Assembly (NCBI RefSeq): GCF_000017505.1
Contig: NC_009675.1
Location: 2,232,001 to 2,296,000 of the forward strand
From: Anaeromyxobacter sp. Fw109-5
GTDB taxonomy: Bacteria > Myxococcota > Myxococcia > Myxococcales > Anaeromyxobacteraceae
Reading direction: 5' to 3'
DNA: 64,000 nucleotides
Program-made: the position numbers and the translations under genes
Shown: in pieces, positions 54,764 through 59,341 of the stretch
Position numbering within the stretch: the first letter of the stretch is position 1
How the letters are laid out: each line of letters starts with the position of its first letter
The notes under the pieces: model-generated
The model's input: only the letters and a program-made list of their open reading frames with translations
Told to the model about the DNA's origin: nothing
Databases searched by the model: none

Positions 54764-55282
54764 CTACCCCCGCGCCGCGCGCAGCCGCTTCAGGGAGCGC
54801 AACCCGAGGACGAGGACGAGGAGGCCCAGCGAGAGGAACGCGAGGGTGCGCGCGAGCGAGGACTTCAGGTAGCCACGCGAGAGCGCCTCGGTGAAGATCC
54901 GCAGCTCGCCGTCGCCCGCGAAGCCGACGCCGAAGCGCTTCTGGAGGAACTCGCGCGTGTACGTGCCGGGCACGAACCCGCCCTCCAGCGGGCCGGCCGC
55001 ACAGGGCACGTCGCCCGCCCGCTGCACGACGAAGGGCGCGCCGCCGTCCCGCGGCACGGCGAGGTAGAACGTGTGGCTCTTGCTCACCGTGCGTGTGTCG
55101 CAGCGGGGCTCGGCGTCCTCGAGCCGCAGCCAGCGCTCCGCCGGCGCGTCGGCTGCCTTCGCGACGAGCGGGGCATCCCCGGAGCGCGACAGGGCCAGCC
55201 CGATGTTCGCGGAGAGCCAGCCCATGCCCAGGGTCCAGATGGCGCCGGCGGCGATGAGGAGGGTGCTCGCGAGCTTTCCCAT
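54764..55282 (-). CDS. membrane protein of unknown function
   Basis: A 172-residue protein with an N-terminal hydrophobic segment (about 7-30) and a C-terminal one (about 142-163, LAFLSLGLLVLVLGL), leaving a central extracytoplasmic domain with two Cys (RCDTRTVSKSHTFYL and VPCAAGP). The tail KRLRAAR is basic and probably cytoplasmic. No family recognised. Its upstream region contains the insertion sequence flank. Confidence 0.7.
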   Translation of the reverse strand: MGKLASTLLIAAGAIWTLGMGWLSANIGLALSRSGDAPLVAKAADAPAERWLRLEDAEPRCDTRTVSKSHTFYLAVPRDGGAPFVVQRAGDVPCAAGPLEGGFVPGTYTREFLQKRFGVGFAGDGELRIFTEALSRGYLKSSLARTLAFLSLGLLVLVLGLRSLKRLRAARG

Positions 55283-55374
55283 GGCTCGGGCATATCACGG
55301 CGCGGGGCGCTGCCGAGGGGCTGGCCGGGCGCGCTCGCCACACGAGACCGGCCGTGGCGGAGGAAGCGGGGCCG

Positions 55375-55391
55375 CAGACCTGATTGGTGAC
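55375..55391 (+). repeat. left outer imperfect inverted repeat around the IS
   Basis: CAGACCTGATTGGTGAC pairs at 15 of 17 positions with the inverse of 57062-57078. It lies 162 bp outside the IS left end. Confidence 0.5.
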
Positions 55392-55506
55392 CAGTCGGGC
55401 GGCCGCCGGCGTCCCTGAGCAGCGCCGCAGGGTTGAGGTCCAAGCCGATCCACGACCCGGCGTGCGCAAGTTCGCACGCTGATCTCACCGAGGGTACGAA
55501 GAAAGA

Positions 55507-55538
55507 GCGGCGGGTGATCCTAGCCGATCACCCGCCGC
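55507..55538. terminator. long perfect hairpin next to the IS left end
   Basis: GCGGCGGGTGATC-CTAGCC-GATCACCCGCCGC is a 13-bp perfect stem with a 6-nt loop. On the minus strand it is followed by TCTTTCTTCG, so it best fits a minus-strand terminator. A smaller hairpin, CGTGCG-CAAGTT-CGCACG, is at 55461-55478. Confidence 0.5.
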
Positions 55539-55553
55539 GAACGGCCTGTCGCT

Positions 55554-56921
55554 GGGTAGGAGCCCGGCGTGAGCCAACGACCCCGAGATCTTACGGGAGG
55601 AGATCGGTGAGGGAAAGACGAGTTCGCCGGGTGGCCGGGCTGCTGCGTGCCCGCCTCCCGGAGCTGGACCTTGAGGCGGTGCCCGACGTCCGCGCCAGGG
55701 AGGGACGCTGGTCGCTGGCGGAGATCCTCACGGGGGTCCTTCTCGGCATCGTGGCCGGGGCGCGGAGCTTGGCCGAGGCCGAGGAGCTGACCGACGGGAT
55801 GAGCCCCGCGGCACGCCGGCTCGCCAGCGTGCCACGACGGCTTCCGGACACCACGGCGCGCGACGCGCTCTGCGCCGTGCCGCTCGACGGGCTTCGCGCG
55901 GCGCTGCACCGGCTCGTGCGGGCCGCGTGGCGCCGCAAAGCGCTCACGCCGGTGGACCTGCCGGTCGGGGTGGTCGCGCTCGACGGCAAGGTCACGGCGT
56001 TGCCGACGCTGAACCATCCGCTCATCCAGAACCAGCACCCCGACGTCGGGCTGCCCTACGGCCTCGCCCGCACGGTCACCTGCGCGCTCGTCTCGGCGCC
56101 GGGGCGGCCGTGCATCGACGCGGTCCCGATCCCGGCGGAGACGAACGAGGCGGGTCACTTCCAGCACGTCCTCGCGGGCCTCGTTGAGACCTACGGCGCG
56201 TTGTTCCAGGTGGTGACCTACGACGCGGGCGCGCTGTCCGAAGCCAACGGCGCTGCGGTAGTCGCGGCGGGCAAGGACTACGTGTTCGCCCTAAAGAACG
56301 ATCACTTCACGATGGTGAAGCTCGCGACCGAGCTGCTCGACCCGCACGAGATCGCGGCGCGGCGCGAGGACGTCCTCGACAACGCGACGACGGCAACGCG
56401 CGAGATCCAGATCCTCGCCGTGGACCCGAGCCACGGATACGGCGCGGGCAAAGGGCCCGAGGAGTCGGTCTGGTCGCATGCGAGGACCTTCCTGCGCGTG
56501 ACCTCGACGGTGCGCCGCTCCGGCGTCGTGATCGAGCGTGACAGTCGGCTCTTCGTGTCGAGCCGAGCGGCCGACCAGCTCACGCCGGACCAGTGGCTCC
56601 AGGTCGTCCGCGCGCACTGGGGTGTCGAGAACAACAACCACCACACGCTCGACACCGCCTTCGCCGAGGACGAGCGGCCGTGGATCGCCGCCGACGCGAA
56701 CGGCATGCTGGCGGTGCTCCTGCTCCGCCGCATCGCGTACACGCTGCTCGCGCTCTTCCGGGCGGTGACGCTCCGCTCGGACGACCACCGCGCGATGCGC
56801 TGGCTCGCCCTGCTGCGCTGGGTGCGCGACGCGCTCATCGTCCTCTCCGCGGAGCACGTCGAGAACCTGCGTCTTCGCTCGCTCGCCGTCGCCACACGCT
56901 GACATCGCCGGGCTCCTACCC
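55554..56921 (+). mobile_element. ISAs1-family insertion sequence, apparently intact
   Basis: A 1,368-bp element bounded by perfect 16-bp inverted repeats, GGGTAGGAGCCCGGCG at the left and its complement at 56906-56921. It encodes a single full-length DDE transposase that stops 3 bp before the right repeat. No target duplication is visible in the bases directly outside, so the exact ends may differ slightly or the duplication has decayed. Confidence 0.85.
55607..56902 (+). CDS. ISAs1-family transposase
   Basis: A 431-residue DDE transposase from a GTG start with GGGAGGAG just upstream. The catalytic residues fit GVVALDGKVT (D), VVTYDAGALSE (D) and HWGVENNNHH (E). The N-terminal domain (DLEAVPDVRAREGRWSLAEIL) is the transposase-associated region typical of the ISAs1/H-repeat family. 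The reading frame is unbroken, so it may be active. An open stretch upstream of the GTG belongs to the IS end, not the protein. Confidence 0.93.
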   Translation: MRERRVRRVAGLLRARLPELDLEAVPDVRAREGRWSLAEILTGVLLGIVAGARSLAEAEELTDGMSPAARRLASVPRRLPDTTARDALCAVPLDGLRAALHRLVRAAWRRKALTPVDLPVGVVALDGKVTALPTLNHPLIQNQHPDVGLPYGLARTVTCALVSAPGRPCIDAVPIPAETNEAGHFQHVLAGLVETYGALFQVVTYDAGALSEANGAAVVAAGKDYVFALKNDHFTMVKLATELLDPHEIAARREDVLDNATTATREIQILAVDPSHGYGAGKGPEESVWSHARTFLRVTSTVRRSGVVIERDSRLFVSSRAADQLTPDQWLQVVRAHWGVENNNHHTLDTAFAEDERPWIAADANGMLAVLLLRRIAYTLLALFRAVTLRSDDHRAMRWLALLRWVRDALIVLSAEHVENLRLRSLAVATR

Positions 56922-57061
56922 GCGGCGAGCGAACATCGAAGGGACCTGAGGGCGGGCGGCGGGCGCGTCGGCGCCGGCCGGCTGCGGCCGCTGCTTGCCT
57001 CGACGTCCAGGCCGACCGCCGGCCCGGCACCCCGGAACGAGAGCCTAACCCTGGGATCGGC

Positions 57062-57078
57062 GTGACCGATCAGGTCTG
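57062..57078 (-). repeat. right outer imperfect inverted repeat around the IS
   Basis: Inverse complement CAGACCTGATCGGTCAC matches 55375-55391 at 15 of 17 bases. It lies 26 bp before the helicase start codon. Confidence 0.5.
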
Positions 57079-57103
57079 AGCGGGGCCGGGGCAGGCTGGA
57101 CCC

Positions 57104-59341
57104 GTGTCGGACCGCCCTGCTAGGTTGCACCTCCCTGAACGTATGTCCCGGCGTTACCAGCTCAAATCCGCCGCCCCGCCGGCGCGCGCCCTCAACTACC
57201 AGGGGCTGCTCAACGACCAGCAGATCGCCGTCGTCGAGGCGGGCGACGGGCCGATCCTGGTGGTCGCCGGCGCGGGCTCCGGCAAGACGCGCACGCTCAC
57301 CTGGCGCGTGGCGCGGCTGCTCGCGGAGGGCGCCTCTCCCGAGTCGATCCTCCTCCTCACGTTCACGAACAAGGCGGCGCAGGAGATGCTCCGCCGCGTC
57401 GGGGAGGTCTGCCGGCTCGACACCCGTCAGATCACGGGCGGAACCTTCCACCACGTCGCCCACCAGCTCCTGCGCGAGCACGGGGGAGAGCTCGGCTACC
57501 GCAAGGGCTACTCGATCCTCGACCGCGAGGACTCGAGCGACGTCATGAGCGCCGCCATCGCCGACTGCGGCCTCGCCGTCGGCGCGCGCCGCTTCCCCAA
57601 GGCGGACGTGCTCATCGACCTCGTGTCGATGGCGGTGAACACCCAGACGCCGCTCGCCGACGTCCTCGCCGACCGCCGCCCGCAGTTCGTCCCGCTCACC
57701 GACGACGTCCTGCGCGTCGCGCGCCGCTACGCCGAGCGGAAGCACGAGCTGAACGCGATGGACTTCGACGACCTGCTCCTCAACTGGAAGATCCTGCTGG
57801 CCGAGCGCGAGGCGGTCCGGCGGGCGGTCGCGGGCCGCTACCGTCACGTGCTCGTGGACGAGTACCAGGACACGAACCGGCTGCAGGGCGACGTGGTGGA
57901 CCTCGTCGCGGGCGAGCACCGCAACCTCTGCGTGGTCGGCGACGACGCGCAGAGCATCTACGCCTTCCGGGGCGCGCACTTCGCGAACATCCTCGAGTTC
58001 GAGAAGCGCTACCCCGACGCGCGCCGCTACGACCTGACCGTCAACTACCGCTCCACCCCGCAGATCCTCGGGCTCGCGAACGCCTCCATCGCGGCGAACG
58101 TGCGGCAGTTCGAGAAGGAGCTCACGAGCGTCCGCCCCGACGGCACGCTCCCGGCGGTGGTGCCCTGCCGCGAGGTCCAGCAGCAGGCGGCGTTCGTCGC
58201 GCAGCGCGTCCTCGAGCTGCGCGACGAGGGCATCCCGCTGCCGGAGATCGCCGTCCTCTATCGCGCCCACCACCACGCGATGGAGATCCAGTTCGAGCTG
58301 GCGCGCCGCGGCATCCCCTTCGTGGTGCGGAGCGGGGTGCGCTTCTTCGAGGCGGCGCACGTGAAGGACGTCCTCGCCCACCTGCGCTTCGTGCGGAACC
58401 CCGGCGACGAGCTCGCCCTGAAGCGCTGCCTCAAGATCACGCCCGGCGTCGGCACGGCCACCGCGGAGGGGGTCTGGAACGCGTTCCTCGCCCGGCGGCA
58501 GCGGGGGGCCGGCACCGTGGACGAGCTCCTCGCGCCGGACGTGGCCTCTCACGTCCCGCCGAAGGGGCGCGCCGGCTACCGCAAGCTCGCGGAGCTGCTG
58601 CGCGCCCTCTCTCGCAAGCCCACCGCCGAGCTGCCCGGAGAGGCGATCGAGAAGGTCATCGAGGGCGGCTACGAGGACTACCTCCGCGCCGAGTTCCTGA
58701 ACGCCGACTCGCGCGTGGAGGACCTCCGCCAGCTCGCCGAGTACGCGCGCGGCTACGAGGACACGGAGACCTTCCTCGCCGAGATCTCGCTCCTCACCGA
58801 GCTCACGGCCGAGACGGTGTCGGAGGGAGGCGACCCCGACGAGAAGATGGTCCTCTCGTCGGTGCACCAGGCGAAGGGCCTGGAGTGGCGCGCCGTGTTC
58901 GTGGTGTGGCTGTCCGACGGGCGCTTCCCCTCGGCGCAGGCGCTCAAGGATCGGGACGGCGAGGAGGAGGAGCGGCGCCTGTTCTACGTCGCGTGCACGC
59001 GCGCGAAGGACGAGCTGTACCTCACGTATCCCATCCTCGCCGCGCCCCGCGATCGTGAGCGCGTGGTGATGAAGGCGTCGCGCTTCGTGGAGGAGCTCCC
59101 CGGAGAGCCGGAGCTGTTCGAGCGCTGGCAGCTCGACGAGCCCGGCGCGGCGGCGCCCGCCCTCGGCGCCGCCCCCGCGCCCTCCGGGCAGCTCCCTCCC
59201 CGCGACGCGCGGGTGGTGCCGGCGCTCTTCGGCGCGCCGACGCCCGGCGAGCGGCCGCGGCTCGGGGCTCCCGGAATCGACGCGCGCGAGCTGCCTCCCG
59301 CGAACGACGACCCCGGGGACGGGGACGACGTGCCCTTCTAG
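57104..59341 (+). CDS. UvrD/PcrA/Rep-like superfamily 1 DNA helicase
   Basis: A 745-residue helicase. Walker A is VAGAGSGKT, motif II is VDEYQDTNRLQ, then DDAQSIYAFRGA, VNYRSTPQIL, the SSVHQAKGLEW motif V and LFYVACTRAKDELYL motif VI. The C-terminal about 80 residues are Pro/Ala/Gly-rich and lack the Tudor-like end of PcrA. It acts as a 3'-5' DNA helicase in repair or replication restart. The GTG at 57104 is used; ATG at 57143 (MSRRYQLK) is an alternative and removes 13 unconserved residues. Confidence 0.93.
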   Translation: MSDRPARLHLPERMSRRYQLKSAAPPARALNYQGLLNDQQIAVVEAGDGPILVVAGAGSGKTRTLTWRVARLLAEGASPESILLLTFTNKAAQEMLRRVGEVCRLDTRQITGGTFHHVAHQLLREHGGELGYRKGYSILDREDSSDVMSAAIADCGLAVGARRFPKADVLIDLVSMAVNTQTPLADVLADRRPQFVPLTDDVLRVARRYAERKHELNAMDFDDLLLNWKILLAEREAVRRAVAGRYRHVLVDEYQDTNRLQGDVVDLVAGEHRNLCVVGDDAQSIYAFRGAHFANILEFEKRYPDARRYDLTVNYRSTPQILGLANASIAANVRQFEKELTSVRPDGTLPAVVPCREVQQQAAFVAQRVLELRDEGIPLPEIAVLYRAHHHAMEIQFELARRGIPFVVRSGVRFFEAAHVKDVLAHLRFVRNPGDELALKRCLKITPGVGTATAEGVWNAFLARRQRGAGTVDELLAPDVASHVPPKGRAGYRKLAELLRALSRKPTAELPGEAIEKVIEGGYEDYLRAEFLNADSRVEDLRQLAEYARGYEDTETFLAEISLLTELTAETVSEGGDPDEKMVLSSVHQAKGLEWRAVFVVWLSDGRFPSAQALKDRDGEEEERRLFYVACTRAKDELYLTYPILAAPRDRERVVMKASRFVEELPGEPELFERWQLDEPGAAAPALGAAPAPSGQLPPRDARVVPALFGAPTPGERPRLGAPGIDARELPPANDDPGDGDDVPF

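Follow-up and report, generated by a model that had tools for sequence, protein, structure and literature searches.

Insertion sequences (ISs) of the ISAs1 family carry terminal inverted repeats, produce target duplications of approximately 8-10 bp and measure 1.2-1.5 kb. Insertion directed to promoters is known for simple elements with transposases of other families (PMC3942029); TnGBS and ISLre2, which encode Mutator-type transposases, are described in that paper as inserting upstream of the -35 box, at a distance of 15-17 bp and in a fixed orientation. The ISAjo2-type elements of the IS1202 family are described as inserting 5 bp away from XerC sites and have been proposed to dock on bound XerC (PMC10132070). 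For the mycobacterial promoters of the RecA-NDp/PafBC type, the consensus tTGTCRgtg-8 nt-TannnT has been given (PMC5656591). In the open-access literature, which was the scope of our search, we found no report of promoter-directed insertion by ISAs1 elements or at this class of DNA-damage promoters. The IS described here is very probably a 1,704-bp ISAs1-family element that has the outer repeats as its ends and inserts in a fixed orientation just upstream of a RecA-NDp/PafBC-type -26 element.

In the window, by which we mean the whole 64,000-nucleotide stretch of Anaeromyxobacter sp. Fw109-5 DNA that was analyzed, the element occupies positions 55375-57078 on the plus strand. Comparison of its outer arms, the left terminal inverted repeat at 55375-55391 (plus strand) and the right one at 57062-57078 (minus strand), confirmed the 15 of 17 complementary bases given in the first-pass annotation. 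When the genome was searched with window positions 55300-57150, three more near-identical copies were returned, giving four full copies in total, together with two matches of 57 bp. Measured between their outer ends, all four copies are 1,704 bp long, in agreement with the earlier estimate of about 1.7 kb; their limits are identical, the left repeat is present in each, and every other copy differs from that of the window by one base at most. A whole-genome search with the outer 17-bp motif, AGACCTGATYGGTNACC, gave four exact and five one-mismatch matches. Eight of these mark the left and right ends of the four IS copies, and one, at 783068 on the minus strand, is a stray outside them. With nearly all of its genomic matches at the ends of IS copies, the outer pair is not a product of chance. 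The window copy is flanked by the 10-bp target duplication AGCGGGGCCG, whose left copy (55365-55374) has the same bases as the right copy (57079-57088), and the other three copies by AGTAACGCCG and TGGTACCCGG (10 bp each) and GGGGGCCGGCC (11 bp). Because it is at the outer repeats that all four copies stop and their target duplications start, the outer pair represents the true ends of one ISAs1-family element. The first-pass annotation had entertained such a larger true element, and both searches that it proposed, for the 17-bp motif and for the 1.7-kb block, put the limits at the outer pair; it had also considered that the outer motif might have no partner in other copies of the IS, and here, too, the result favors the outer pair.

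The transposase gene (55607-56902, plus strand; 431 aa) most likely starts at GTG 55607, behind GGGAGGAG, and the leaders of five relatives have ATG in place of this codon. Run on a longer, 489-aa frame, the NCBIfam ISAs1 model NF033564 scored 74.4 bits against a cut-off of 70, and Pfam PF13808 scored 23.9 bits, under its cut-off of 32.3; the protein matched only ISAs1, weakly IS1380, and DDE_Tnp_1_assoc models, and D126, D206 and E341 are invariant in all 13 aligned sequences. On this profile and alignment evidence, the transposase is of the ISAs1 type, with a DDE active site. The 17-bp ends matching at 15 positions and the duplications of 10, 10, 10 and 11 bp are as expected of the family. 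The length of 1,704 bp exceeds the usual range, as do the 1,682 bp of a distant ISAs1 element (29% identity) that is present in nine places of one genome, eight copies having both ends (G064:C1, L117-L125); this range may be too narrow, and we did not treat it as defining. The G064 element resembles ours in its ends (CAGGCTTGATT...) and in its duplications, which are 11-12 bp in six of the eight copies, but the conserved inner repeat, the structured leader and the fixed target spacing described below were not seen in it. The Anaeromyxobacter genome also encodes a second ISAs1-type transposase with 29% identity (G000:C1:684090-685103; L071), the N-terminal part of which does not align with relatives, perhaps because of a frameshift. 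No copy of the element was found in the viral contigs searched, and among 12 plasmid records the identity was at most 30%.

The right flanks of the four copies in the Anaeromyxobacter genome differ over their first 25 bases and are alike thereafter. For a positional test, we used 11 right ends from five genomes as the discovery set: these four, three from G022 (a relative in another genus of the same family), two from G012, and one each from G020 and G132; a MITE-like copy in G007 and the copies with unreadable right ends (including G012:C263, G007:C286 and G004:C149) were left aside. In all 11 copies, a YGTC[ACG] core, which occurs at 1.1% of window positions, lies 25, 26 or 27 bp past the terminal CTG of the right end. 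A test that presupposes no motif gave 9.86 bits at this core, against a mean of 4.51 (sd 0.35) and a maximum of 5.79 in 150 dinucleotide shuffles. The core is followed by R (YGTCR) at nine of the 11 sites and lacks it at two, and TA stands at +16 at seven and is absent from four. The published mycobacterial PafBC consensus, which is independent of these data, has its best match 25-27 bp past the right end in 10 of the 11 right flanks, or in 10 of 13 when the MITE-like copy and a 44%-identical relative (L031, scored with this consensus only and outside the positional test) are included; among random window points, 879 of 20,000 (4.4%) have their best match there. In the MITE-like copy, the core is found as the best match at 29 bp, and L031, which reads GGTCC at the place of the motif, scores poorly and has no good match to the consensus.

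The left flanks do not show this signal. None of nine has the best match to the published consensus at 25-27 bp, and the positional test on left flanks showed no signal (4.55 bits against a mean of 5.06 and a maximum of 6.11 in 60 shuffles). The right flanks of the G064 element behave likewise: the best consensus match lies at this position in one of eight, and the positional test gave 5.98 bits, against 5.56 on average and 6.79 at most in shuffles. Apart from short partial matches, a search for further right ends beyond the 11 recognized only the known ends of G012 and of the Anaeromyxobacter genome. The three G022 copies are without an exact target duplication, and the G020, G132 and G012 copies are each represented by one end. 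The ends, the 10-11 bp duplications in the Anaeromyxobacter genome, the orientation and the 25-27 bp spacing are established at the level of sequence. The sites without TA or R, the MITE-like copy, L031 and the G022 copies without a duplication weigh against the targeting reading, as does the left flank of the IS copy in G022:C8, which bears a strong motif that reads outward 24 bp away; this near-perfect PafBC-type promoter motif lies upstream of a CBASS-type cyclase gene (L030, 1382-2390; PADLOC, 216 bits), and this copy has the cyclase gene as its left neighbor and a DNA cytosine methyltransferase gene as its right one.

In its core and its 16-bp phase, the target motif resembles the mycobacterial RecA-NDp/PafBC promoters at most, though not all, of the 11 sites, whereas TGTCR is here followed mostly by GAC or GGC-like bases instead of gtg (PMC5656591). 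The ISAjo2 group of dif-site hunters likewise shows a fixed orientation and spacing beside the site of a host DNA-binding protein, but these elements belong to another transposase family, make 5-bp duplications and seek dif sites instead of promoters (PMC10132070). TnGBS/ISLre2 and the ISKra4 group (p-MULT 3 and 4) combine Mutator-type transposases with sigma-A promoters, unlike the ISAs1-type transposase and RecA-NDp-like motif of our element; being without a Mutator-type transposase, it works in a similar manner and is not a member of p-MULT.

At the window locus, the target is a promoter-like motif, TGTCGGAC-N8-TAGGTT (57105-57126, plus strand), located 26 bp past the right end as judged by the position test, and it is one of only two exact matches in the genome. 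It is followed by a UvrD/PcrA-like helicase gene (57143-59341, plus strand), which scored 437.7 bits with the NCBIfam pcrA model, below the cut-off of 911, when the frame was run from 57125. The first-pass annotation had placed the right outer repeat 26 bp before the helicase start, which holds for GTG 57104, a codon overlapping the promoter motif; the conserved start, shared by seven related genomes, is ATG 57143, 64 bp past the outer end. The promoter core beside the insertion is intact and is also found in two related genomes without the IS at this place, and an effect of the IS on the helicase is possible. In G005 and G008, the helicase promoter carries TGTCGGACC with no IS, and in G008 the recJ promoter carries TGTCACCC, again with no IS. 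Because these promoters bear the motif without the IS, the motif is host sequence; five other members of the genus have a different helicase promoter core, GATAYCGCCTGCTAG. Of the empty site that had been proposed as a check, motif-bearing promoters lacking the IS were found, but a full empty site with both flanks adjacent was not found in the related genomes: in G005 and G008, sequence matching the left flank of the window copy sits on contigs other than that of the helicase, and for the recJ copy no long match to the left flank turned up within the genus.

The four copies in the Anaeromyxobacter genome precede genes for the UvrD/PcrA-like helicase, a PolB-like 3'-5' exonuclease (over the cut-off of PF10108), RNase HI (like the helicase, below its NCBIfam cut-off) and RecJ (over its cut-off). 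Downstream of the G022 copies are genes for the DNA cytosine methyltransferase, a SEC-C protein and a protein with RadA architecture, a name that we infer, and downstream of the G012 copies are ClpS-ClpA-like genes and one gene of no known family. The majority of sites lie between genes, upstream of a gene. Two sites, both assigned by eye, are not at a gene promoter: in G020 the IS sits where a PIN-like frame has its 3' end, and in G132 it sits within an MFS-like frame. Judging from the spacing and these neighbors, the IS seems to seek out promoters, most of them belonging to DNA-maintenance genes.

The motif TGTCRGACN8TAGNNT has two exact and 12 one-mismatch sites in the 5.28-Mb genome (the reversed control gave four), and two of these 14 sites are IS targets. 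Four of the 12 sites without the IS lie 28-46 bp before the starts of recG (a truncated frame, below cut-off), ruvB, dnaB and thyX, and the other eight could not be tied to a DNA-metabolism gene. The family scan covered eight of the 12 sites, leaving out the frames at L129, L134, L136 and L137; among the four of these other eight that were scanned, three have no family and one is RelE/ParE-like, below cut-off. The genome contains six WYL-domain matches, including two WYL genes in tandem that are PafB/PafC-like and whose best matches among solved structures are PafBC (6sj9). In Myxococcus xanthus, a pafBC operon has been linked to the UV response, and in the same analysis 24 of 51 genes are said to carry the PafBC sequence (PMC9705874). 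The target promoters may be under PafBC control in this host.

As to how the element finds these promoters, the most likely mechanism, with a probability of roughly one half for this step alone, is that the transposase docks on the promoter-bound complex of PafBC and RNA polymerase; we favor it because of the analogy with TnGBS/ISLre2 and the ISAjo2-type elements. The docked transposase would join the right end nearest the complex and leave the promoter core intact. The two staggered cuts would precede the motif core by approximately 26 and 16 bp, near -54 and -44 if the TA box (TAG) is the -10 element, which would place them at the upstream edge of the polymerase footprint, near the site used by unrelated promoter-targeting transposases. 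We further propose, tentatively and as something possible that falls short of probable, that docking on the PafBC-polymerase complex at DNA-damage promoters steers transposition to the DNA-damage response and perhaps times it with that response. The element would then be a bacterial counterpart of those yeast elements whose integration takes place at stress or Pol III promoters.

The transposase might instead read YGTCRG itself, at a fixed reach and without PafBC or polymerase, such that promoters are struck merely for carrying that sequence. The presence of YGTC at all 11 sites, compared with TA at +16 at only seven, speaks for such direct reading, and because two of the sites fall within open frames, that of G132 having no TA box, and because PafBC is reported to be unable to bind its promoter DNA without polymerase (PMC11804915), direct reading remains a strong rival, with a likelihood not far below even. 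What argues against it is that, by our own arithmetic, the cut position relative to the transcription start equals that of the other promoter-targeting transposases (PMC3942029), which hints at a common docking surface. Broad insertion, after which selection or chance leaves copies near promoters as safe places upstream of genes, would agree with the majority of sites being intergenic and upstream of genes; it is highly unlikely, given that the spacing varies by only +/-1 base in all 11 copies and that selection on gene function would neither fix a distance nor account for the two sites in open frames.

The internal part of the element bears on the two remaining possibilities. Upstream of the left inner arm, the leader contains a hairpin with a 13-bp stem (55507-55538, plus strand), which persists in each of the six leaders that were folded. 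The stem shows compensatory changes: a T-A pair is replaced by C-G, and in the G007:C286 leader one G and one C have been lost together. The leader folds far better than shuffled sequences (z = -5.7), whereas the 3' part of the element shows no excess structure (z = -0.4); Rfam gave no match up to E = 1 over 55200-57300. The inner inverted repeat, with arms at 55554-55569 (plus strand) and 56906-56921 (minus strand) that are complementary at 16 of 16 bases, is likewise conserved. Its left arm has the same sequence in the window copy, the three G022 copies and G012, with an altered version in G007:C286 and a broken one in G007:C105; for its right arm, the window copy, the three G022 copies and G132 agree, and G020 has an altered version. 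These two features, the inner repeat and the hairpin, probably either serve to regulate the transposase or are sites to which it binds; they may form a regulatory RNA structure or constitute subterminal sites for the transposase. The strongly folded, conserved, non-coding leader also calls to mind a guide RNA that chooses the target, as in IS110-type elements; this is exceedingly unlikely, as no stretch common or complementary to the leader and its four own targets was found above chance, G020 has a changed inner arm and a target of the same kind, and the transposase is of the DDE type.

The first-pass annotation had taken the perfect 16-bp inner pair as the ends of an ISAs1-like element, 55554-56921, which may have inserted in an older element or MITE. 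The pair itself is real; nevertheless, homology with the G022 relative (74% DNA identity over positions 86-1698 of the 1,704) runs unbroken across both arms, which contradicts such an insertion, and by this comparison the inner pair is a conserved internal feature bracketing the transposase gene and no IS boundary. In the DNA search of the genome, neither a copy bounded by the inner repeats nor an outer element without the inner IS was found, and the only MITE-like copy is that of G007. Although two inverted pairs are present and the 286-bp G007 copy has outer ends only, we give almost no credence to a 1,368-bp IS having jumped into a MITE or larger element to yield a composite that is now mobile, and reject it on the limits of the genomic copies and the unbroken homology through the inner arms: every copy in the genome is full length, the sequence shared by relatives extends to both sides of the inner arms, the left arm, within the leader, precedes the start codon by 37 bp and the right arm follows the stop by 3 bp, an arrangement unlike that of the terminal repeats of a separate IS, and the G007 copy resembles an internal deletion between short GCGGCGGGCGA repeats. 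In this 286-bp derivative (G007:C105; L038, 581-866), the left end of the IS is fused to the right end at the common GCGGCGGGCGA, and it adjoins degraded pieces of the full element.

If the element is truly directed to DNA-damage promoters, then it would provide a one-protein system in which to study how a DDE transposase finds a promoter, and its copies would serve as natural markers of a non-SOS DNA-damage regulon in this group of bacteria.
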